Shown one piece after another: positions 5,208 through 27,585 of a DNA stretch of 64,000 bases. The notes beneath the pieces were generated by a model, which saw only the letters and a program-made list of their open reading frames with translations, was not told where the DNA came from and ran no database searches. The stretch covers positions 1-64,000 of the forward strand of contig CANRCT010000004.1 of NCBI GenBank assembly GCA_947629175.1, given 5' to 3'. A program made the translations under genes and the position numbers. Each line of letters opens with the position of its first letter. The stretch's first letter is position 1. This DNA is from an uncultured Muribaculaceae bacterium (GTDB lineage: Bacteria > Bacteroidota > Bacteroidia > Bacteroidales > Muribaculaceae).

Positions 5208-7067
5208 TCATTTGAGCAGACGGGCGTTGAACGCGCGCAGAGTGTCGAGCACATTGGAGCGCACATTGACGAAATTCTCTATGCCGACAGCCTTGAGATC
5301 GTCGGAGCATGCGGGAGCGCCTGCGACAACGAACTCGGCGCGTCCGTCGAGATACTTGAACGCCTTGGGAGCCAGCTCGGCATACTCATCGTCGCTCGAG
5401 CAGAGCACCACTACATCGGCGCCCTTTGCAAGAGCCTCGTCGACGCCTTGCTCAACAGTCTCGAAGCCGAGATTGTCGATAATCTCATATCCGGCGCATC
5501 CGAAGAAGTTGGTCGAGAACTGAGCGCGCGCCAGACGCATGGCCAGATTGCCTATGGTAAGCATAAATACCTTCGGACGGTTGGCAGCTGCCTCGGTAGC
5601 CAGACGCAGAGCCTCGAAATCGCTTGCCGCGCGGGAGGTGGGGAGCGATGTTCCGGCCTCGCAGGTCTCCTCCTCGTCGTGTCCGTGGCATCCGCAGGAG
5701 CATCCGGTGGTTTCAATCTTGCCGGCTGCCATCTCGTTGATGTTGGGATACTGGTTCGTACCGAGAAGTATCTCCTTGCGACGGGCCACGTCGGTATGAC
5801 GCTTCTCGGATGTCTCGCGTACTGCACGCTGAACCTCGCCTTCGTTGACTGCTGCAAGGAATCCGCCCTTCCCCTCCACTTCGAGGAAGAGCTTCCAGGC
5901 CTCCTTGGCTATGGCTACCGTAAGGGTCTCCACATAGTAGGAGCCGCCGGCAGGGTCAACAACCTTGTCGAGATGGCTCTCCTCCTTGAGAAGGAACTGC
6001 TGGTTGCGGGCGATGCGCTCCGAGAAATCGTCGGGCGTGCGGTAAGGCGTGTCGAACGGAGTGACTGTAATCGAGTCGACGCCTGCGAGAGCGGCCGACA
6101 TGCATTCGGTCTGGCTGCGGAGGAGATTGACGTGGGCGTCGTAGATGGTCTGGTTGTATTTCGAAGTGGTGGCATGCACGGCCATCTTGCAGGCATCGGT
6201 CGATGCGGGCTTATACTGCTCGACGATCTGCGCCCAAAGCATGCGGGCCGCACGGAACTTGGCTATCTCCATGAAATAGTTGCTCGAAATACCCATGTTG
6301 AATTTCACGCGCGAGGCCACCTCGTCGGCCGACAGTCCCTTGTCGGTGAGAAGCGTGAGCCACTCGGCGCCCCAGGCGAGAGCATATCCGAGTTCCTGGT
6401 ATATATAGGCTCCGGCATCGCTGAGCATAACGCTGTCGACACCAAGCAGACGCAGCCCCTTGACATCCGCGGCTGCAGCGATCATCGACGCGGCCATACC
6501 GGCGATATCGCCGGGGAATGCCTTGCCATGCTTGAGAGCTTTCTTGAAAGGATTGAAATCGATGCTGCCACGGAAAGTATCTGCTGCACCCTGGGCCTTG
6601 ACATACTTCACGAGGTTGTCGCAAAGTTCCTGGGCGTGACGCGGACAAGTGGTGAAATTGATCTCCACCTTAACGATATCGATATCTTTCAAGAGTGTGG
6701 CGAGCGTGTCGGCATCGCATTCCTTGAGCTTGAATCCGAGAGAGGTGATTCCCTTGCCGAGCACTTCGACAGCCTTGGAGTTGGCTGCAGCCGCATCGGC
6801 GGCATTGATCTCCTGACGCGCAAGCCAGTCATTGTCGGTGTGTGTGCCGCGGACGAAAGGATATTCTCCGGGCAAGGAATTCGTCGTGTCGAGATTCTCG
6901 ATGTCTTCGGCACGATACATAGGCTGCACATTGAAGCCTTCGTTGGTACGCCACACCAGTTTCTTGTCGAAGGGCACACCCTTCAGATCGGCTTCCACTT
7001 TCTCGCGCCATTCGGCGGTGGTCACCGGCGGAAACTGGTCAAACAACTTTTCTTTTTTTTCTGCCAT
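5208..7067 (-). CDS. mutA: Methylmalonyl-CoA mutase, small subunit
   Basis: Partner subunit of the heterodimeric mutase, homologous to MutB but not expected to bind cobalamin: the C-terminal B12-like domain lacks the DxHxxG signature. I place the start at the ATG at 7067 (MAEKKEKLFDQF, 619 aa). An in-frame GTG at 7106 would add 13 residues of low-complexity leader. Around residues 450-466, between the barrel and the C-terminal domain, there is a Cys/His-rich insert (CSCGCHGHDEEETC) that could bind a metal; I do not know whether it is conserved. It is the first gene of the mutA-mutB pair and lies downstream of fumarase. Confidence 0.95.
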   Translation of the reverse strand: MAEKKEKLFDQFPPVTTAEWREKVEADLKGVPFDKKLVWRTNEGFNVQPMYRAEDIENLDTTNSLPGEYPFVRGTHTDNDWLARQEINAADAAAANSKAVEVLGKGITSLGFKLKECDADTLATLLKDIDIVKVEINFTTCPRHAQELCDNLVKYVKAQGAADTFRGSIDFNPFKKALKHGKAFPGDIAGMAASMIAAAADVKGLRLLGVDSVMLSDAGAYIYQELGYALAWGAEWLTLLTDKGLSADEVASRVKFNMGISSNYFMEIAKFRAARMLWAQIVEQYKPASTDACKMAVHATTSKYNQTIYDAHVNLLRSQTECMSAALAGVDSITVTPFDTPYRTPDDFSERIARNQQFLLKEESHLDKVVDPAGGSYYVETLTVAIAKEAWKLFLEVEGKGGFLAAVNEGEVQRAVRETSEKRHTDVARRKEILLGTNQYPNINEMAAGKIETTGCSCGCHGHDEEETCEAGTSLPTSRAASDFEALRLATEAAANRPKVFMLTIGNLAMRLARAQFSTNFFGCAGYEIIDNLGFETVEQGVDEALAKGADVVVLCSSDDEYAELAPKAFKYLDGRAEFVVAGAPACSDDLKAVGIENFVNVRSNVLDTLRAFNARLLK

Positions 7068-9546: not shown

Positions 9547-11211
9547 TTATTGCGCGAGAAGAGCGTCAAGATCCACGGCGCGGTTGTGATCGTTAAGATA
9601 ACGCCGCGCCGGTTTTTTGTATCCCCGGGAGACCAGCGATAGCGACGGATCAAACAGCGGCGATCCTACTGCCCCAAGCTGCATGGCCGTATGGTAGACC
9701 GACCGCGATGTGCTGACCGGCGACTGCCTGTTGGCGCCGGCTGCCTGAAGATATTCGGGATGACGCGCCGACATACTGTCGGACATCCATAGAATCATGG
9801 GCACATCAACCTGCCATCGGCTCGGAACCGGCGAGGCGTGCAGAAAAAGATGACGGTCATCATCGAAAATATCCTCTCCATGATCGGAGGCATAGACCAT
9901 GGCTGACTCGGCATCGCAGGCATTCAGGCATCCGGCGACCGAATCGAGCATCGCGGCTGTATATAAAATAGTGTTGTCGTAAGCATTGTCCAGACAATCC
10001 TTGGCAGCCAGGGAAGCATCGGCATAGCTGTCGGGGGTGAAACGTGCGAACGACTCCGGATAACGGTCGGCATAGCTGAAATGGGAACCATAAGTGTGGA
10101 GGACTATGAGCTGGCGGTTATGGCCGAGCGACAGCTCTTCGCGCAGCAGCGGCAAGAGCTCCATGTCGTATCTGTCGGCTGCCGAACCCGGCTGCTCCTT
10201 GATAAACAGAGTTGTATCAGCCTCATTGCCGAAAAAGTCGATAAACGAGCGGTTGTAGCGCTGATTTGAGAAGAAAGCCGTGCGGAAGCCGGCCTCACGG
10301 AATGCCGTGATTATGCTCTTGACGGAGTAGATCGAGTCGCCGAACGAATCCGCGTCAAGATGCGACAGAAGCATAGGCACGCTCTTATGAGTGGTGTTCG
10401 ACTCGGAATACGCATCCGGAAAGCTGATGAATCCGCCTTCGTCAAGCTGTGGCGACGTGGGACGTTCATAGCCATTGATCTGCCACCGGTCGCCCCGGGC
10501 TGTCTCACCGATGACGATGACCACCACTCGCCTGACCGAGTCGGCCGGCTGACGGTCAAACGCTCCGGCCGAGAAATGAGCCGACGTAAGCGAATAATTG
10601 CCTACACGCTCCGTACGGTCTACGGCAAGCACGATGTTGTAAAGTATATCGACAGGATATATGTCAAGCAGAGGGCGCACAGGCCTTTTGCCAGGCAATG
10701 ATACGGCAATAGCTGCCAGGGCTGCTATAAGAGCAACCAACGACAGGCGCCGGACTCCTCTCACGACGCTAAGGCTTATGCGCCAACGGTGAGACACACC
10801 GGCTATAGCAAGAGAAAGCGACGGAAGATACATGAGGCACACCGTCAGAATAGCAGAGAGAAGATTGCCCAGCAGCTCGCCCACCTCGGTAGGATTGGTG
10901 GTAACGACATTCAGAAACATGTCGACAGCGATTATAGAGCGGCCATAGAGAAACAGCAACACTATCTGAAAAGCTCCGAGCACCATGAAAGGGAATACAG
11001 TCAATACCGTCACACCAATTTTACGGGAACATGTCAGCCAGAGACCGAACGCGCCCAAAGGGAAGAGAAAATTGGCCAGCCTGCCGGCCAATGACAATGA
11101 CTCCGTGACCGACAGAGCCGCAGCAGGGATCACAAGCATGGCGAGTGTCCAAAGCAGCAAGGCGTCGGGCAGATGAGCTGAAATATGTGAAGAAAGCGTG
11201 TGTGTTTTCAT
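9547..11211 (-). CDS. Phosphoethanolamine transferase (sulfatase superfamily)
   Basis: An inner-membrane enzyme of the EptA/CptA type that transfers phosphoethanolamine from phosphatidylethanolamine to lipid A or core sugars. About five N-terminal transmembrane helices fill residues 15-180; a periplasmic alkaline-phosphatase-fold domain follows. Metal and catalytic motifs are present: IGETARGDRW (Glu near 232), SNTTHKSVP with the nucleophilic Thr near 272, and YASDHGEDIFDD (Asp/His near 443). Bacteroides-type lipid A is known to carry phosphoethanolamine, which suggests the substrate. The Omp85-like barrel gene ends 12 nt upstream on the same strand, so the two are probably one operon acting on the envelope. 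Confidence 0.9.
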   Translation of the reverse strand: MKTHTLSSHISAHLPDALLLWTLAMLVIPAAALSVTESLSLAGRLANFLFPLGAFGLWLTCSRKIGVTVLTVFPFMVLGAFQIVLLFLYGRSIIAVDMFLNVVTTNPTEVGELLGNLLSAILTVCLMYLPSLSLAIAGVSHRWRISLSVVRGVRRLSLVALIAALAAIAVSLPGKRPVRPLLDIYPVDILYNIVLAVDRTERVGNYSLTSAHFSAGAFDRQPADSVRRVVVIVIGETARGDRWQINGYERPTSPQLDEGGFISFPDAYSESNTTHKSVPMLLSHLDADSFGDSIYSVKSIITAFREAGFRTAFFSNQRYNRSFIDFFGNEADTTLFIKEQPGSAADRYDMELLPLLREELSLGHNRQLIVLHTYGSHFSYADRYPESFARFTPDSYADASLAAKDCLDNAYDNTILYTAAMLDSVAGCLNACDAESAMVYASDHGEDIFDDDRHLFLHASPVPSRWQVDVPMILWMSDSMSARHPEYLQAAGANRQSPVSTSRSVYHTAMQLGAVGSPLFDPSLSLVSRGYKKPARRYLNDHNRAVDLDALLAQ

Positions 11212-20406: not shown

Positions 20407-20480
20407 GGTCCCATAGCTCAGTTGGTTAGAGCACCTGACTCATAATCAGGGAGTCCTTGGTTCAAGCCCAAGTGGGACCA
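20407..20480 (+). tRNA. tRNA-Met-type (anticodon CAT), integration target
   Basis: A 74-nt cloverleaf: acceptor GGTCCCA/TGGGACC with discriminator A, D arm AGCTCAGTTGGTTAGAGC, anticodon loop CTCATAA, T loop GGTTCAAGCCC. CCA is not encoded. CAT could be elongator Met or lysidine-modified Ile2; I cannot separate these by eye. The 3' half is duplicated at 27542-27585, so the gene remains intact after integration of the element. Confidence 0.93.
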
Positions 20481-20481
20481 C
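20438..20481 (+). repeat. attL: 44-bp direct repeat within tRNA-Met
   Basis: Identical over 44 bp to 27542-27585. It begins in the anticodon loop (ACTCATAATCAGG) and runs one base past the tRNA discriminator. It is the left junction of the element and supplies the intact tRNA 3' end. Confidence 0.93.
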
Positions 20482-20493
20482 AACCTAACAGTC

Positions 20494-20526
20494 AAGCACT
20501 TACATTTACTTGTAGGTGCTTTTCTT
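20494..20526 (+). terminator. Element-encoded terminator for tRNA-Met
   Basis: AAGCACTTAC (20494-20503) pairs with GTAGGTGCTT (20512-20521), followed by a T-rich tail. The same 10-bp architecture occurs at the right flank (27598-27627), where a C-G pair is replaced by G-C. The element thus restores a terminator to the interrupted tRNA transcript. Confidence 0.8.
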
Positions 20527-20535
20527 TTTGAGGTA

Positions 20536-20555
20536 CGGAACTTATTCGGAACTTT
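20536..20555 (+). repeat. Left arm-type direct repeat pair (CGGAACTT)
   Basis: Two CGGAACTT units 11 bp apart. The whole 20-bp block is identical and in the same orientation at 27406-27425, near the right end. A further GGAACTT lies at 20589-20595. These are candidate recombinase or excisionase arm sites. Confidence 0.7.
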
Positions 20556-20737
20556 GATTTTCGATTCCTACTTTTCGCCATCTTCTTGGGAACTTCAACG
20601 AGCGCAGTATTGGGCTTAGTATATATCAAAAGCAAATGAGCCATCACCACGAGTGGCAACGGCTCATCTTCATAAGGGGTGCAGGGGGTATCACGCCCCA
20701 CGGCTCATTTTCTGATAGTGCGACTCTGAAAAAATTT

Positions 20738-21121
20738 TTATTTCATTTTACGGAATGTAGTACTTGTTTCGCCAAAGTAGCTACTCTCGTAATAAACGGT
20801 TAAAGTATTACCTTGTAACTTTGCGCTCTTGAATGTCATGATTTCGGTATTATAGTTTCCTTCAAAATTATGGAATGTTATCTCGCTTCCATTTTTAGAA
20901 TAAGTCCCTGAGCCAACTTTACCTATAAGTGCATCGTTTTTTGTGTGATAATACTCCACTTGAGTATCAGAAGTAAACTCTATGTGTTCCACGCGTTCAG
21001 TTAACCCATGTGTCCACTCTGTCCCCTTGAGGGTGTCTTTTGGCTCATCATCATCGCCGCCACAAGCAGAGAATGTGAGCAGTGTTGCAAGTAGCAACAT
21101 GAGCGAAAATACTTTTTTCAT
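20738..21121 (-). CDS. Small lipocalin-like lipoprotein (element cargo)
   Basis: A 127-aa lipoprotein: signal MKKVFSLMLLLATLLTF, lipobox FSAC with Cys20, then a GGDDDEP acidic surface-export-like tether. Acidic residues straight after the lipid Cys are typical of Bacteroidetes surface lipoproteins. The mature domain (LKGTEWTHGL, then about eight short strands such as VEHIEFTSDTQVEYY, ending TFRKMK) has the look of a small calycin-like barrel. It is the last gene on the left of the element and the most likely accessory cargo. It might alter the host surface, for example against phage, but there is no direct evidence for that. Confidence 0.75.
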   Translation of the reverse strand: MKKVFSLMLLLATLLTFSACGGDDDEPKDTLKGTEWTHGLTERVEHIEFTSDTQVEYYHTKNDALIGKVGSGTYSKNGSEITFHNFEGNYNTEIMTFKSAKLQGNTLTVYYESSYFGETSTTFRKMK

Positions 21122-21463
21122 TTACTTGTAATGTTATTCGTTTTGTGCATTATTGCCATTATGTCGTTTGACTTGGTATGCGCACATGCTAACAAAACAA
21201 AAGCGCAGACTTTCGTCATACGCAGTCTTGGCTCACCACAAGCCATAATAATCCTACGAGAAAGTCCGCGCCGTATGGCACGCACTCACGGATTATTATT
21301 TTAGCTCGTTCTTTTGTCGAGGTGGTGATTCAGACTGCGATTGAGCTAATATATAAGGGTGCAATACCCCAAAAGAATACTGCACCGCAAATTTACAAAG
21401 ATTTTCTGACTTGGCAATGAAGTAATTGCCTTTCTTTTCTATTGATAGGCATTTATGCGCCTT
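21122..21463. other. Stem-loop-rich noncoding region of the element
   Basis: 342 nt without an ORF. Inverted repeats: AGACT/AGTCT (21207-21211, 21224-21228); GGCT/AGCC (21230-21233, 21241-21244); TAATAATCC/GGATTATTA (21246-21254, 21290-21298); TTAGCTC/GAGCTAA (21301-21307, 21343-21349); GGTGCA/TGCACC (21358-21363, 21381-21386). A long-range pair, CGCAGTCT (21221-21228) with AGACTGCG (21332-21339), competes with the first stem. It could be a replication or transfer origin, or a structured RNA. The lipoprotein's promoter should also lie here. Confidence 0.6.
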
Positions 21464-21619
21464 TTAATGAGTGTTGCGCTCGATTGCGTCTAAATTCTCT
21501 TTCAAAGGAATCAGAAAATCGTTGAGGAGGTCAAGCATCTTTTTTGCCATCGCATTTGCGATTGCTTCCACGGACTCTTGGGATAGGGTTACTTCGATTG
21601 TTGTGCTTTTATTTTCCAT
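21464..21619 (-). CDS. Small hypothetical protein of the element (51 aa)
   Basis: Reads MENKSTTIEVTLSQESVEAI and continues as an amphipathic helix (ANAMAKKMLDLLNDFLIPLK), ending ERNTH. It starts 4 nt after the stop of the upstream element gene, so translational coupling is likely. The N-terminal beta strand followed by a helix resembles small accessory DNA- or protein-binding subunits, but no family is recognised. Confidence 0.55.
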   Translation of the reverse strand: MENKSTTIEVTLSQESVEAIANAMAKKMLDLLNDFLIPLKENLDAIERNTH

Positions 21620-21623
21620 ATCA

Positions 21624-21935
21624 TTACGGTATTGGGTTGAACTTCAATTTATCTTCAAGGCGGAGGTCATAGAGGGCTTGGAAATATTCGCTTACCCATT
21701 CTTCTTGGCTGCGGCGTGTTGCCATCGCCGCTAACGAGTTGCGGCTTGCCTTGGTCTGCGGATAGGCTGTAAGGAACGCATCGACTTTGCTCATGCCCAG
21801 CCACATCATCAGGCAAAACACGACATCGGCACGGGTCATCTTCTTTGACAGATGAATCTTCGCAGGGTATTTCGCCAACTCCCACGCCGTTTGCCATACC
21901 GGTTTATCTTGGCGTTTCTTCTTCGTATGCTTCAT
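21624..21935 (-). CDS. Hypothetical protein, possibly terminase-small-subunit-like
   Basis: A 103-aa protein from the ATG at 21935 (MKHTKKKRQ). A frame extension to 22031 looks untranslated and has no plausible start. It is basic at the N-terminus; then come a helix-turn-helix-like pair (MTRADVVFCLMMWLGMSKVDAFLTAYP) and a helical end (RRSQEEWVSEYFQALYDLR). The pattern FLTAYPQTKASRNSLAAMATRR is loosely reminiscent of phage terminase small subunits, which have a Tyr-Pro-containing N-terminal recognition helix set. That would fit a phage satellite, but the resemblance is by eye only. It lies in the minus-strand element operon. Confidence 0.55.
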   Translation of the reverse strand: MKHTKKKRQDKPVWQTAWELAKYPAKIHLSKKMTRADVVFCLMMWLGMSKVDAFLTAYPQTKASRNSLAAMATRRSQEEWVSEYFQALYDLRLEDKLKFNPIP

Positions 21936-22044
21936 AAGAATAAAACTTGACTTGTTGTTGTTTACTTCAAGCATTGACGGCAACCAACATATTTCTTGAC
22001 TTTTATCGCGGCATCTGCTGACCCCCGCCATGCTTTTTCTTACA

Positions 22045-22284
22045 TCAGTTGAGGTTTAAGGCGGCAAGCGCAGGTGAACCGCAGTTGTCTATCCTTATCC
22101 ATTCGGGTATCTCCAGTTTTGGTGAACCCTTGGCGATTTCCGCTTTAAGGTGTTCAAGGTTATAGTAACCATTCGCTTCTGCCACGTTATTATTGAGCTT
22201 CATTTCAACAACCCCAGTAATGAAGTCGAAGCGAAACTGAATATCAAGCCGATTGTCGTAGCGCATAGTTTTATAAGTCCACAT
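22045..22284 (-). CDS. Small hypothetical protein of the element (79 aa)
   Basis: A 79-aa protein, MWTYKTMRYDNRLDIQF, with an N-terminal beta-rich half (DIQFRFDFITGVVEMKLNN) and a helical middle (YYNLEHLKAEIAKG). It has no signal peptide or membrane segment. It starts 17 nt after the stop of the Toprim-like gene and precedes the terminase-like gene by 109 nt, so it should be in the same transcript. No family recognised. Confidence 0.5.
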   Translation of the reverse strand: MWTYKTMRYDNRLDIQFRFDFITGVVEMKLNNNVAEANGYYNLEHLKAEIAKGSPKLEIPEWIRIDNCGSPALAALNLN

Positions 22285-22301
22285 ATCTTTGATAGTTTAA
22301 G

Positions 22302-23411
22302 TTATACAATTTTCCACTGACCGTGATAGCCGTAGCACGTTGTTATCAAATCCCATATCGGCTTCCCTGCCTTGACGTATCGTAGAATGACATCATCGAA
22401 GCCATCGCCATCTTCAATCTCACATTCTATATTGTAAGGGTGAAGACTCCTTTCCATAGCCGTACTTATCCACACTTCCTTGCTGAATCCTTTGAGCTGC
22501 TCGCCCCTTGATTTCCATTCCTCAAATTTGCCATTGTCGGGGAATAGTACAATTTTTCGATTCTTCAAGACTTGAATTTTATCGTAGGGATTTCTACGAG
22601 AATCCAAAGTTGGATTTATGTTACCGCATCCGCAGGTCGCCATCGGAACTGCCGTCATTCTGCATCCGCCCCACATCAGAGCAATCGACATAATGACTGC
22701 CGCTTTGGGCGATTCAAATAAGTAGATGATAGGCTCTACTTCACATTTCGGCATATTCGGCATAGCATCCCATTCTTGATGAATTTCAGCAACGACTTTA
22801 TCAGCGGAATTGATGAGGTGACTGCCGAAATAGCATTGTTCAAGTTTGAAGTCGGGATATTCCGATTCCATCACCGAATGAACCCAGTTTTGTTGCTTGT
22901 GATTCCGCTTTCCAGTTGTGGAGTCGTAGCCTATAATCTGCCCGCTTCGGATTCTGCCGAACTGGTCTATCTGCCAAAAGATAGTCGAGCCATCATATCT
23001 TGATGAGGTGCCAACGGCATAACGCTCGATGTTGGCTTGAACAATGTCCGCGCCTGCTTTTGAGTCGAATGTCGAGTGCAGGAACTTGGCAAGAGGATTC
23101 TGCTCATAACCGCGCATTGTTTCCATCATCAAAGATGAGTCTATATAGCTTGGCGCTTTTACGACTGGTCGCTTGCGTTGAGGTCTGAATCGGGTGTATC
23201 TCGCAGAATCGAAACTTGGATTATCCTTGAAGTACTCCCTTGGGGGGTAGTGAACGCCGCAGTTATCGGCTCTATCGCACTTGCCACATACGCCATCCGC
23301 TACTGGCGAACCATCAGAATAGATGTAGTTGACAAATGTCTTTTTGCCGCAGTACGAGCAAACGACTTTTCCACGCTTGGCAAGTTGTATGTCTTGACTA
23401 TATCTTCTCAT
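22302..23411 (-). CDS. Zinc-finger/Toprim-like protein (DUF6371-type, primase-like)
   Basis: A 369-aa protein. The N-terminal CSYCGKK...CGKCDRADNC pattern (residues 18-50) is a likely zinc ribbon, as in DNA primases. The C-terminal half has a Toprim-like arrangement, IYLFESPKAAVIMSI (Glu/Lys) and IVLFPDNGKFEEW (Asp), similar to DUF6371 proteins of Bacteroidetes mobile elements. It probably acts in replication of the element with the neighbouring RepA-like ATPase, making primers or binding single-stranded DNA. It begins 83 nt after the ATPase gene on the same strand. The function is inferred from motifs and context. Confidence 0.7.
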   Translation of the reverse strand: MRRYSQDIQLAKRGKVVCSYCGKKTFVNYIYSDGSPVADGVCGKCDRADNCGVHYPPREYFKDNPSFDSARYTRFRPQRKRPVVKAPSYIDSSLMMETMRGYEQNPLAKFLHSTFDSKAGADIVQANIERYAVGTSSRYDGSTIFWQIDQFGRIRSGQIIGYDSTTGKRNHKQQNWVHSVMESEYPDFKLEQCYFGSHLINSADKVVAEIHQEWDAMPNMPKCEVEPIIYLFESPKAAVIMSIALMWGGCRMTAVPMATCGCGNINPTLDSRRNPYDKIQVLKNRKIVLFPDNGKFEEWKSRGEQLKGFSKEVWISTAMERSLHPYNIECEIEDGDGFDDVILRYVKAGKPIWDLITTCYGYHGQWKIV

Positions 23412-23494
23412 AATCCTAAAATCTTATTGTTCACGTTGTTCATCTGTTCACTCCTTGAACACGTGAACAAAATGAACATTGCGAACATCGGTTA

Positions 23495-24592
23495 TCATTT
23501 GTTATGAGATTTAATGATTTTGTTGACCTTGCCAAGACTGACCCCGATTTCTCGACTTATCTCACGTTGCTTTTTGCCTTGACGGTGCAACTCCATCACT
23601 CGACTATCAATTTCAGTTTCATCTTTATCTGACACTTCTTTCAGATGTTCGCGCTCCTTAGCGTAGCCGATATGGTTGAACTTCAAGAAGCCATTCTCCT
23701 TTGATATGTCAGCGACAATGACATTATCCGCGCCATACTCAAATGAGCCGTAACGACATTTTATCTGCTTGATATATCGTAGTGCTTCATCTTTGGCACT
23801 CCTGCCGATAGCGAAAGCACTATCAAAGAAGTTAATCAACTTCTTACTCCCTGCAAGTGTGTTTTGGTCGATTGGCGAAGTCAGAGGTCTTTTCGGGGTG
23901 TGGGCGATAATCAGCAACGACCATCCATGTTTCTTTTTGAGTCGCACCAAATTCACCATTAGACGCCCTGCCGCATCTCCTTTCTCGCTTGCGTTGCATA
24001 TCCAACTAAGATTGTCGATGATGATAACCTTGACGGAATGAGCGATTGCCGCGCTTTCAATGTCTTGAACGACTATATCTTCATAGTCTGCTCCCATTAC
24101 ACTTTCCCCCATAGCTTCGGGGTCTATCTCGGCACGCTTGAAGTTTGCGGGGAATTTGTAAAGTGTTCCAGTTGCATCATCGGAATAGCGAAGTTGAAAA
24201 GCCTTGTCGGAAAGCTCGAAGTCGCAGTATAAAACTGGCTCATTCTTGGCTATTTCATTGGCTATCTGAACGGCATAAATGCTTTTGCCAAGATTGGAAT
24301 CAGCGAATAGACACGCACATTCGCCCTCATACCATAGCGACATCCACAACTGCTTGGGGTCGGGTCGTTGAGCCGCTTCTTCGCACCATTCGTTTGCATC
24401 CTTGATACATAGAATCCCGATAGAGGACTTGTCGATTTCGGGTTCAGTCGGATTGCTGACGAGAGCCATCAAGGAATTAAGCTCACTGCTTTGCTCATGT
24501 CGCTGATTTTCGCTATCTTTGCACCGGAACTTAGTAACGCTTGACGTTGCTGCCCCTGCTTCTTCGGGAGTGGGGGTATTTGTTTTAGTCAT
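23495..24592 (-). CDS. RepA-like AAA/RecA-fold ATPase with C-terminal HTH
   Basis: A 365-aa protein. Residues 95-105 hold a Walker A variant (ADSNLGKSIYA, Lys103), and VIIIDNLSW near residue 195 is Walker B. This is the AAA_25/RepA hexameric-helicase style ATPase common in plasmids and integrative elements. The last 35 residues (KKQREISREIGVSLGKVNKII) form a helix-turn-helix for DNA binding. It overlaps the upstream HTH gene by 4 nt (ATGA), indicating coupled translation. It is probably the replication helicase of the excised element. The classical P4-like single-chain primase-helicase is here split between this gene and the next. Confidence 0.8.
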   Translation of the reverse strand: MTKTNTPTPEEAGAATSSVTKFRCKDSENQRHEQSSELNSLMALVSNPTEPEIDKSSIGILCIKDANEWCEEAAQRPDPKQLWMSLWYEGECACLFADSNLGKSIYAVQIANEIAKNEPVLYCDFELSDKAFQLRYSDDATGTLYKFPANFKRAEIDPEAMGESVMGADYEDIVVQDIESAAIAHSVKVIIIDNLSWICNASEKGDAAGRLMVNLVRLKKKHGWSLLIIAHTPKRPLTSPIDQNTLAGSKKLINFFDSAFAIGRSAKDEALRYIKQIKCRYGSFEYGADNVIVADISKENGFLKFNHIGYAKEREHLKEVSDKDETEIDSRVMELHRQGKKQREISREIGVSLGKVNKIIKSHNK

Positions 24593-24933
24593 ACTGCCGC
24601 ACCTCCTTTCAGAGCCGCATCCACTTCTGACGGATAGAAGAGATAGCGATTACCAACTTGACGGAACGGAATCTTATCCGCTTTCATCATTTTGTTGAGC
24701 GTTGCTGTGCTCATTCCGTAGTGACGGCACAAGGCACGTACACCACGCAGGGGTTTTTCACCAGTCGCACACGGCTCGACTTCTTTCTTGTCGGGAATAA
24801 TGCCTATCAGTCTGCTTGCGACCTTGTCGGCAACTGAATCGGTAAACTCATCCCACGACTTACCGCTCATCGCCATTGACAATGCCAATTCAGCGAGATT
24901 GGGATTTGGAGTTGATGTTATAATTCTTGTCAT
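24589..24933 (-). CDS. Helix-turn-helix protein, excisionase/AlpA-like
   Basis: A 114-aa protein from the ATG at 24933 (MTRIITSTPN). The C-terminal part LRGVRALCRHYGMSTATLNKMMKADKIPFRQVGNRYLFYPSEVDAAL is a MerR-like winged helix of the excisionase/DNA-binding type, and resembles DUF3853 proteins of Bacteroides elements. The N-terminal half is a helical extension. Its position after the recombinase and the unknown gene, and its coupling to the ATPase, suit a role as recombination directionality factor or as activator of the replication genes. Confidence 0.75.
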   Translation of the reverse strand: MTRIITSTPNPNLAELALSMAMSGKSWDEFTDSVADKVASRLIGIIPDKKEVEPCATGEKPLRGVRALCRHYGMSTATLNKMMKADKIPFRQVGNRYLFYPSEVDAALKGGAAV

Positions 24934-25029
24934 ATCTAATAATTTTAGAATCTGACGCAAAGTTATAACAACCTAAAACACAAGTCAATAGATAAAATTT
25001 GATTCAAATTATCATCAAATATTATCAAG

Positions 25030-25944
25030 TTATTTTGTGCAGTTTTTAAACACTTCTACAATCGCATTATATTCTTTTCCCTTGCAATGCCCATAATGAG
25101 GGCTATATGCTTGAGGTGTTCCAATATTTGGAAAATATGATTCAACCTGCGGAAATGTAGGCTCGCAAAGTTTCCCAGCTTCTACACATGCTTGAATCAC
25201 CATAGCAACCCGCTTGCCCTTTCTTCCGTCAATAAGAGCGCGTAATTGATTAAGGATTTTGTTGCGTTCTTCGGCAGTGCCAATTAACAAAGAAGTAAAT
25301 GGAACATCGGTGCTGCTCGGTCTGCCCGCCTTTACGCGATAACTCTCCTTTGGTACAACACTACCCCCATTTAACTTTGATAAATGATATTCCGCTAATT
25401 GGGGTGTTCCGAAGACCATCCATAAATCATTAACATCAAGACGCTCGATTATGGTAATACCGCATCGACTCTGTATATCCAAAATATTTATCCCAAGTTT
25501 GACAAGAATGACGGCAAGTTTTTCAGCGAACGACCGAAATGCACTTCTCCATGTAAAAAAGAAGTCTTCAATAGAGTGAAGTCTTATGGAGTTGCTGACC
25601 GAATCTAATTTTTCTTTTGATAGAGAGTAGAGCCATACCCACGTCTGCATCTTGCATAGCAATTCTTCTGCATACATTTGTCGGCCATCATCGGGGAGCG
25701 AGGCGAGATTATCCGCTATCTCATCCATCAGAGGACTGCAATTACCAACACCGCCCCACGGCCACGTATTGAACGTTTCCGTACGTTCTCGAATTTCAGC
25801 AAGAACGCCATCGGGATAATCTTTTCTTCCTGCCGTACCATTGCCGATGCCACAATATTCAAAGTGCATCATGTCGAGCGTCATTATTGCCGCCCCGTCA
25901 TATTGGAACTCTTTGAAAAATTTGTATTCTAATTCTCTTTTCAT
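25030..25944 (-). CDS. Hypothetical protein of the element (304 aa)
   Basis: A 304-aa soluble protein with an N-terminal acidic/aromatic domain (MKRELEYKFFKEFQYDGAA), a helical middle (EEFFFTWRSAF-like segment, residues 125-160) and a C-terminal part containing RKGKRVAMVIQACVEAGKL and YFPNIGTPQAYSPHYGH. The C-terminal pattern hints at a DNA-binding or element-specific accessory protein. It starts 17 nt after the recombinase stop and is surely co-transcribed with it. Similar-sized unknown genes accompany recombinases in other Bacteroides elements, but I cannot name the family. Confidence 0.6.
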   Translation of the reverse strand: MKRELEYKFFKEFQYDGAAIMTLDMMHFEYCGIGNGTAGRKDYPDGVLAEIRERTETFNTWPWGGVGNCSPLMDEIADNLASLPDDGRQMYAEELLCKMQTWVWLYSLSKEKLDSVSNSIRLHSIEDFFFTWRSAFRSFAEKLAVILVKLGINILDIQSRCGITIIERLDVNDLWMVFGTPQLAEYHLSKLNGGSVVPKESYRVKAGRPSSTDVPFTSLLIGTAEERNKILNQLRALIDGRKGKRVAMVIQACVEAGKLCEPTFPQVESYFPNIGTPQAYSPHYGHCKGKEYNAIVEVFKNCTK

Positions 25945-25961
25945 AGTTGGTCGAGGTGCTA

Positions 25962-27347
25962 TCAGTTTTGAGGAATCGGCGGAATGATGAAGATTTTCTC
26001 ATTGTACGCCTGCATCGCTTCATCTGATAGATTATTGATGTAGCCTGCGAGAAGTGCGGACACTTCCGAAGTTGTATGCCCCACGGCATAGTCGATATAA
26101 GAAGCCATCACGCCATGATGAGCCAACGCGGAAATGAAACTATTGCGGGCATATTGCGGTGTTATGCGCTGAATATCGAGCGAGTCACACACTTCTGCGA
26201 TATTCTTTGATATGCGTCTATTGAAGTCGTGAACGCGAATCACCTTTGCTTCATCGGTGACGGCATTGCCAAATATATCGGGGAACACTGGCGCACCTGC
26301 TCTGAACGGACTGGCATACTCATTGAGCAACTGCCGAAGTTGAGGTATTATCGGAATGATAGTCACATCGAGCTGCTTGCCTACTGGCTTGTTTGCGCGG
26401 TCTATCTTGGAGCGTATGAAGCTAAGTTGAGGATAATCCTCATCAGCCGAACTATTGTCCTGCCATACCAACTTAGCCATGTCGATAGCGTTGAGTCCAT
26501 TGAGCGAGTAGAGCATAAGCCATCGACCAACGGCACGACCTTTGGCGGACTGCTTGCCACGGCTATCAAGAGAAGTCCAGTAGTCCCATAGTTTGAGGAC
26601 ATCTTCGACTGATATAGCGTTTGTGCGTCGACGATTCCCAGTGTGCATGAAGTCCTTGAACTCTGGAACTGCATCAATCAAGCCATCTTTCTTTGCTTGA
26701 TTCAGCACGGCACGAAGCGCACGAAGTATCATCATGCGAGTATCAAGCGACAACGGCTTATTCGGCTTCTCGCCCTTGCGTACGACTCCCGATTTTTGCT
26801 TCATGAGCCACTTGTCGAACTTGCCGATTAAGTCAGTAGTGACATCGGGTAACTGGATAGATGAGCCATTGCGGAACTCACGGAATCTTTTCAGTGCCAT
26901 GTCGTACATCTGACGGGTCTTGACCTTTTCCTTTCCTGCCGATAAATTCTCCCAGTAGGTGAATGTATCATTGACAACTGGCTTGAATCCCTTGGCTACT
27001 TCTTCTTGCAGGCGTTCAAGCGTGAATCGACCTTTGCTTGATAAGATGATAGACTTGACTACATCGAGAATCATATTGAAGTAGTCGAGTTGTTCTTTTC
27101 GGTCGGGTCGGGAATCACGCGCACTTACGAATGATAGGTATTCCTTTGATGAGGACATCTTCATTCCAGTACGGAAATACTTCTTATCTTTGTCGTATGA
27201 CACGCGCACAGCAAGGGGAACATCTTCACCACGCTCAAATTTGGCGTGACGAACATCGGCTATCAGAGATAGGAACACGCCGCCGAAGTCTGCTTTCATA
27301 GCGACTGGCAAGCGTTTAGCCGAATTTACGGAACTTTCGTTTGACAT
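25962..27347 (-). CDS. Tyrosine recombinase / integrase
   Basis: A 461-aa site-specific recombinase that should catalyse integration at the tRNA-Met core. The N-terminal arm-binding domain covers about residues 1-110, the SAM-like core-binding domain about 120-220 (TFTYWENLSAGKEKVKT), then the catalytic domain. Visible catalytic features are the beta-hairpin Lys region SKIDRANKPV, the box-II Arg in QYARNSF, AVGHTTSE (His) and the Tyr in GYIN. The usual first Arg position reads YSLNGLNAID, without Arg, as in several Bacteroidetes recombinases related to IntDOT, and the box-II His is Asn. The gene ends at the left of the att-proximal region, 195 nt from attR. Confidence 0.92.
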   Translation of the reverse strand: MSNESSVNSAKRLPVAMKADFGGVFLSLIADVRHAKFERGEDVPLAVRVSYDKDKKYFRTGMKMSSSKEYLSFVSARDSRPDRKEQLDYFNMILDVVKSIILSSKGRFTLERLQEEVAKGFKPVVNDTFTYWENLSAGKEKVKTRQMYDMALKRFREFRNGSSIQLPDVTTDLIGKFDKWLMKQKSGVVRKGEKPNKPLSLDTRMMILRALRAVLNQAKKDGLIDAVPEFKDFMHTGNRRRTNAISVEDVLKLWDYWTSLDSRGKQSAKGRAVGRWLMLYSLNGLNAIDMAKLVWQDNSSADEDYPQLSFIRSKIDRANKPVGKQLDVTIIPIIPQLRQLLNEYASPFRAGAPVFPDIFGNAVTDEAKVIRVHDFNRRISKNIAEVCDSLDIQRITPQYARNSFISALAHHGVMASYIDYAVGHTTSEVSALLAGYINNLSDEAMQAYNEKIFIIPPIPQN

Positions 27348-27405
27348 TGCTTTATCTAATTAGTTGGAACTTAGTATTGTTACAGACATCAGTCACGGAA
27401 CTTTG

Positions 27406-27425
27406 CGGAACTTATTCGGAACTTT
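27406..27425 (+). repeat. Right arm-type direct repeat pair (CGGAACTT)
   Basis: Identical 20-bp copy of 20536-20555. Another GGAACTT unit lies just upstream (27397-27403) and one inside the 5' end of the recombinase gene (27330-27336), giving four units at this end. Confidence 0.7.
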
Positions 27426-27541
27426 CAATCTGAAACAATGCAAAATTAGCAAAAACAATCGACATACGCAACTATCTAATCTAAAATATTTTACTAACTT
27501 TGCACCACGATAGAAAACAATGAAAAACACTATTGGATATA

Positions 27542-27585
27542 ACTCATAATCAGGGAGTCCTTGGTTCAAGCCCAAGTGGGACCAC
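27542..27585 (+). repeat. attR: 44-bp direct repeat of the tRNA-Met 3' half
   Basis: A perfect duplicate of 20438-20481. It lacks the tRNA 5' half, so no functional tRNA can form here. It marks the right junction between element and chromosome. Confidence 0.93.

Follow-up and report, generated by a model that had tools for sequence, protein, structure and literature searches.

A 7.1-kb element at a Muribaculaceae tRNA gene is a probable phage satellite carrying a TerS-like gene

We analyzed a 64,000-nt stretch of contig CANRCT010000004.1 from an uncultured Muribaculaceae bacterium (the window, in whose numbering all element coordinates are given) and found a discrete insertion of 7,104 bp at the 3' end of a tRNA gene. 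It carries an integrase, a putative excisionase, a helicase-primase module and a gene whose product has the DNA-binding domain of a terminase small subunit (TerS) (Table 1). An earlier note on this DNA had described tRNA-borne 44-bp direct repeats bounding a 7.1-kb element, and this was confirmed by the tRNA called with ARAGORN and the exact repeat lying 7104 bp away, start to start. The similarity of the two copies extends to 66 bp at 91%, and an exact repeat of 44 bp is much longer than chance would give. With its distal copy, the element regenerates the 3' 44 bp of the target tRNA. Five other genomes of the genus (G301, G346, G445, G396 and G527) have the tRNA joined directly to the sequence that in the window follows the distal repeat on its right, indicating that the element is a clean insertion. 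This empty site, which the earlier note had proposed to look for, also places the ends of the element at the repeats, and no larger enclosing element was found. The GC content is 44.3% in the element versus 52.1% in the remaining window. A second copy is present in G383, a complete genome from a different genus of the family, where it occupies the same tRNA type, adjoins the same two-component-system genes and has its repeats 6,619 bp apart. Short CGGAACTT repeats lie just within both ends of the window and G383 copies and may be arm-type sites of the integrase.

All genes of the element are on the minus strand, and the tyrosine recombinase, excisionase-like and primase/helicase genes predicted between the repeats were all recovered by family matches. 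Among the smaller genes, orf79 has a dN (nonsynonymous rate) well under its dS (synonymous rate). Scans with Pfam, PHROG and NCBIfam gave no family match for orf304, which by eye is resembled by a 315-aa open reading frame (ORF) of another island (L082). In the same scans no ORF of the element matched a capsid, portal, tail or large terminase (TerL) family, a relaxase, ppi or cpm; four relaxase-like queries taken from related elements likewise gave no match, and neither Pfam nor PHROG detected psu, sid, delta or P4-like or cfPICI (capsid-forming phage-inducible chromosomal island) capsid genes in the element. The claim that the element lacks transfer and capsid genes consequently stands, within these scans and searches, for the relaxase and the capsid. 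It overlooked a TerS-like packaging ORF, and because this gene is present the statement that no machinery of either kind is visible was wrong.

Table 1 Features of the element and of its target site, in window coordinates
Feature	Coordinates	Strand	Evidence or remarks
tRNA, CAT anticodon, called tRNA-Met, integration target	20407-20481	+	ARAGORN, repeats, empty sites
attL core, 44-bp exact repeat	20438-20481	+	
Tandem CGGAACTT repeats inside left end	20536-20555	+	20-bp exact match to 27406-27425; also in G383
Cargo lipoprotein, Lipocalin_4 domain	20738-21121	-	PF13648 E 3.9e-5
Structured RNA	21194-21395	-	folding energy, covariation
orf51, small protein	21464-21619	-	ORF list
TerS-like DNA-binding protein, 101 aa as read here	21624-21929	-	
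orf79, small conserved protein; lies between the primase and TerS-like genes	22045-22284	-	tblastn
Zn-ribbon and DUF6371 (PG0870-like) putative primase	22302-23411	-	PF19898 E 1.4e-33, PF21957 E 1.3e-13, NF040506
AAA_25 (RepA/primase-helicase-like) ATPase	23495-24592	-	PF13481 E 9e-15, phrog_239 E 3e-15
HTH_17 excisionase-like protein	24589-24960	-	PF12728 E 4.6e-6; phrog_66 and phrog_1840 excisionase
orf304, no family	25030-25944	-	position matches orf310 of G383
Tyrosine integrase, 461 aa	25962-27347	-	PF13102 (Phage_int_SAM_5) E 4.3e-14, phrog_1 E 8.9e-14
CGGAACTT repeats inside right end	27396-27425	+	starts 27396, 27406, 27417
attR core, 44-bp exact repeat	27542-27585	+	

The TerS-like ORF could also start at an in-frame ATG a few bases upstream or, in a longer version, at 22031. 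Of 397 genomes of the family, four others contain a close relative of it, the records including Heminiphilus faecis and Muribaculaceae Isolate-013. Three of the four relatives lie downstream of orf79 and the primase; the TerS-like gene of locus L016, found without these two genes, may be a remnant. In the G383 copy the same slot holds a different TerS-like ORF with 22-23% identity to the window type. When used as a query, this protein weakly re-found three window-type proteins and led to a further genome, G343, with two islands (L082 and L071) that both carry a third type of TerS-like protein (79% identical to each other). Island L082 lies at a tRNA-Thr and encodes an orf304-like ORF (by eye), an excisionase-like helix-turn-helix (HTH) protein, an ATPase and a PG0870-like primase. 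The replication genes of L071 are an unrelated pair, for DUF5906 and Toprim proteins. Small ORFs similar to orf51 follow the TerS-like gene in L019 and L071 (by eye). The dN/dS ratio of the TerS-like gene is about 0.06-0.11 in most informative pairs and higher (0.35) only between L018 and L016: the gene is under strong purifying selection. Weak matches in G447, G451, G303, G351, G397 and G408 were dropped as relatives because the frame was interrupted, the match short or the ORF much longer. Separately, a TerS-like gene 83% identical to that of the window was seen on a 4-kb contig labelled Candidatus Saccharibacteria (L022, CANOTH010000056.1), a label that is probably a binning error. A related island at a tRNA-Lys (L058) has an integrase, the ATPase, the primase, a 154-aa ORF and an orf79-like gene, and neither a TerS-like gene nor a relaxase was seen in it.

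Several lines of evidence connect the proteins of this slot to phage TerS. The top PHROG family is phrog_51, terminase small subunit, for the slot proteins of L071 (E 0.0038), L082 (E 0.028) and G383 (E 0.03); these scores are individually weak, and Pfam gave no TerS match for the slot proteins. We therefore compared them with 12 genuine TerS from prophages of this bacterial family, the majority of which adjoin a large terminase. In hhalign, the eight pooled satellite proteins matched the 12 prophage TerS with a probability of 93.8% (E 1.7e-7) and a score of 48.4, against 17.8 for the best of 200 column shuffles and 14.1 for the reversed profile, and the G343 pair alone reached 68.9 (4.5e-5). 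A hidden Markov model built from the prophage TerS only was run on 22 loci with 2,121 ORFs in all. Right behind the true TerS of a prophage in genome G334 it ranked seven of the eight satellite ORFs, with E values of 0.0034-0.13, and the next ORF, in the background, had an E of 0.48. The AlphaFold model of the window-type protein made from its single family was poor (predicted local distance difference test, pLDDT, 50) and was not used; with the pooled eight-sequence alignment the pLDDT rose to 75, with 85-89 in the core. The three best solved-structure matches of this model (VIA) are all small terminases (SF6 with Z 6.2 and 5.7, PaP3 with Z 5.0; next match 4.1), and terminase small subunits make up most of the named top matches in a search of a viral structure library. 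On these comparisons, we assign to the product of the TerS-like gene a DNA-binding domain homologous to that of phage TerS.

Prophages were found in genomes that hold such elements, as the earlier note had suggested looking for: genome G334 holds a satellite together with a tailed prophage (C3) that has a phrog_51 TerS, TerL, portal, protease and capsid, and the genome of the window contains a Mu-like prophage contig (C59, L124), a fragment with Mu portal, large-terminase-like and tail genes. A search of the window genome with the PF04860 portal family gave no match, and a terminase-like ORF of 645 aa (G000:C23, L123:9013-10944) was rejected as a prophage gene, its neighbours being chromosomal. 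Several genomes of the family also have large-terminase-like ORFs of about 640 codons with chromosomal neighbours (G383:C1:334140, G025:C23:257946 and G334:C4:137306), which do not obviously belong to a prophage. Since prophages of the same family carry a phrog_51 TerS, the element could be a degenerate phage that has kept its integrase, replication and terS genes. We regard such a remnant as very improbable. The replication module is of the mobilizable-transposon type and not of the phage type, the genes are intact, compact and under selection, and nearly the same backbone, with sharp replacement of modules, occupies this tRNA type in another genus. The conservation of one short architecture across several genera already largely refutes the remnant.

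The element is probably an integrated phage satellite, and the best-supported reading of its sequence is that it represents a new satellite family. Phage satellites are defined by mechanisms or signals that favour their packaging in the particles of another phage, by the lack of a complete structural set and by mobilization by a helper (PMC11389934). The element has no complete structural gene set and is hence not a phage. The earlier note had hesitated between a phage satellite and a minimal mobilizable island, and it is the TerS-like gene that speaks for the former. A further argument for a satellite is that the TerS slot is conserved while the type of TerS differs among G383, G343 and the window. 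Upon infection by a helper phage or its induction, the integrase and the excisionase-like protein would excise a circle through the 44-bp repeats, and the AAA/DUF6371 module would replicate it. The TerS-like protein would then recruit the large terminase of the helper to a site on the satellite, whose DNA would thereby be packed in helper particles, and in the next cell the satellite would integrate at the same tRNA and deliver its lipoprotein cargo. As only the DNA-binding domain of TerS is present, the satellite protein may need helper components or compete with the helper TerS.

Several points weigh against this interpretation. A helper, excision, particles and transfer were not observed. 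Its helicase-primase module is also found in mobilizable transposons. The case for TerS rests on pooled slot proteins and therefore assumes that these are homologous to one another; taken by themselves, the five near-identical window-type proteins give no significant match to phage TerS (score 20.4, shuffle maximum 22.3). Confidence in the structural model is moderate, and a Z of about 6 may reflect a common helical arrangement. Searches of IMG/VR with the TerS-like proteins, the integrase, the primase and a module protein of G343 gave no relative, and searches of phage records with the TerS-like proteins gave none either. Finally, the slot proteins have about 100 aa versus 160-200 aa for prophage TerS, only the N-terminal DNA-binding domain aligns, and the C-terminal region of TerS for oligomerization and TerL binding is missing from the satellite protein. 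This truncation would also suit a decoy that acts at pac sites or on TerL and blocks phage packaging, the island being an anti-phage defence island that spreads otherwise. We consider this improbable, because TerS serves packaging in known satellites (PMC6092414), the constant integrase and replication module argue for a self-moving element, and PADLOC matched nothing in the element besides the excisionase-like HTH protein.

Comparison of the window and G383 copies shows how the proposed satellites exchange modules. Most of the length of the two aligns at 91-96% identity (blastn), with 99% identity for the integrase and the ATPase and 86% for the primase. Replaced between them are 20612-22044, which includes the TerS-like gene, orf51, the structured RNA and the lipoprotein gene, and 24999-25367, the C-terminal third of orf304. 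This is the sole part of orf304 that is swapped, along with the TerS module, between the two nearly identical elements (the window element and L056). It is possible that this part of orf304 is a specificity domain. At locus L017 a window-type TerS-like gene (83%) is found beside an L018-type orf79, which indicates that modules recombine separately.

The helicase-primase genes of this backbone link the element to mobilizable transposons. Its ATPase is 50% identical to that of CP103138, a circular 10-kb cfxA element of Bacteroides fragilis that we take, by its gene content, to be Tn4555-like. In CP103138 the genes follow the order excisionase, ATPase, DUF6371 and mobilization protein, and the place of the mobilization protein is held by orf79, the TerS-like gene and orf51 in the window element. 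This suggests that the transfer module was swapped, in either direction, between elements that share a chassis. We tentatively propose, giving it somewhat less than even weight, a Bacteroidales satellite family built on a mobilizable-transposon chassis, in which an exchangeable TerS reduced to its DNA-binding domain took the relaxase slot and a one-module swap turned conjugation into phage packaging. Alternatively, the element would itself be a mobilizable transposon of the cfxA-element or NBU (non-replicating Bacteroides unit) kind that has lost its relaxase or provides nothing but an origin of transfer; the TerS-like protein would then be a general DNA-binding accessory that marks the element for the relaxase of a conjugative element. 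The ATPase and gene order of CP103138 favour this alternative, as do the relatives of the primase, found in relaxase-bearing faecal contigs and Bacteroides plasmids. We nevertheless judge it rather unlikely: the element has no relaxase relative, the slot that encodes mobilization in CP103138 holds three TerS-like sequence types in the closely read islands with a common similarity to terminases, and the TerS-like gene is under strong purifying selection. Faecal records named 'Bacteriophage sp.' that match the primase were first taken as packaged satellites. They were excluded as evidence because reading of the longer ones showed relaxases, restriction genes or no TerS. A comparison of orf304 with the 'transposase' ORF of CP103138 gave no match. 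In another locus (L057), a DUF6371/AAA replication module was seen with a PD-(D/E)XK-transposase-like ORF and 180-bp direct repeats at 6004-6183 and 10489-10668 (98% identity).

Upstream of the lipoprotein gene lies a structured RNA of about 190 nt with a minimum free energy z of -5.9. By eye, it is preceded by a Bacteroidetes-type -7 box (TAnnTTTG, 21395-21388) and ends in a GAAA-loop hairpin (21223-21203) followed by a T-run, which we infer to be its promoter and terminator. The RNA occurs in 21 of 207 genomes of the family, within and outside these islands, mostly directly 5' of a gene for a lipoprotein or another small, probably secreted, protein. Over 20 sequences, pairing is retained in 94.9% of the pair cells and 72 two-sided changes are observed versus 23.3 in shuffles (0 of 500), and slid controls collapse. 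No Rfam family matched. The RNA resembles a leader containing a conditional terminator or attenuator, or else a small RNA, and is a candidate new one. The lipoprotein has a weak similarity to immunity proteins of the BSAP-5i family (NF053773, E 5e-6, well short of its cut-off) and might protect against a secreted antimicrobial.

If the element is a satellite, such satellites would shape gene flow among dominant gut bacteria and carry lipoprotein cargo between genera, and the near-identical window and G383 pair, which differs mainly in the TerS/cargo module, would be a natural experiment on helper choice. We found no phage satellite of Bacteroidales described in the open-access papers searched, and the satellite families listed in a 2024 review come from other phyla.

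Among known satellites, the element resembles the Staphylococcus aureus pathogenicity islands (SaPI) and other phage-inducible chromosomal islands (PICI) in its tRNA-type or specific att site, its integrase and excision protein, its own replication module and the lack of capsid genes. The comparison with satellite types that the earlier note called for gave PICI-like traits, including att repeats, and no P4-like or cfPICI genes. In some SaPI/PICI, a homolog of terS redirects headful packaging (PMC6092414). The window element differs from them in its size of 7 kb, its Bacteroidales host, its TerS limited to the DNA-binding domain, and its replication by AAA_25 and DUF6371 proteins, which are not homologous to PICI pri-rep by family name. 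It also has no recognizable stl/str, alpA, ppi or cpm gene, its HTH_17 protein matching excisionases and not the stl or alpA families. Phage-inducible chromosomal minimalist islands (PICMI) are alike in size (about 6-7 kb), in minimal content (integrase, regulator and primase) and in having no capsid remodelling genes. PICMI have no terS and insert at fis in Vibrionaceae (PMC10803314), whereas the window element lies at a tRNA and has a TerS-like gene.

The cfxA element CP103138 has, in addition to the homologous ATPase and the shared gene order, a tyrosine integrase, and differs by the mobilization gene that follows its primase. The phrog_51 prophages of Muribaculaceae, such as C3 of G334, share with the element the TerS DNA-binding domain, homologous by profile comparison, but their TerS is full length and adjoins TerL, portal and capsid genes.

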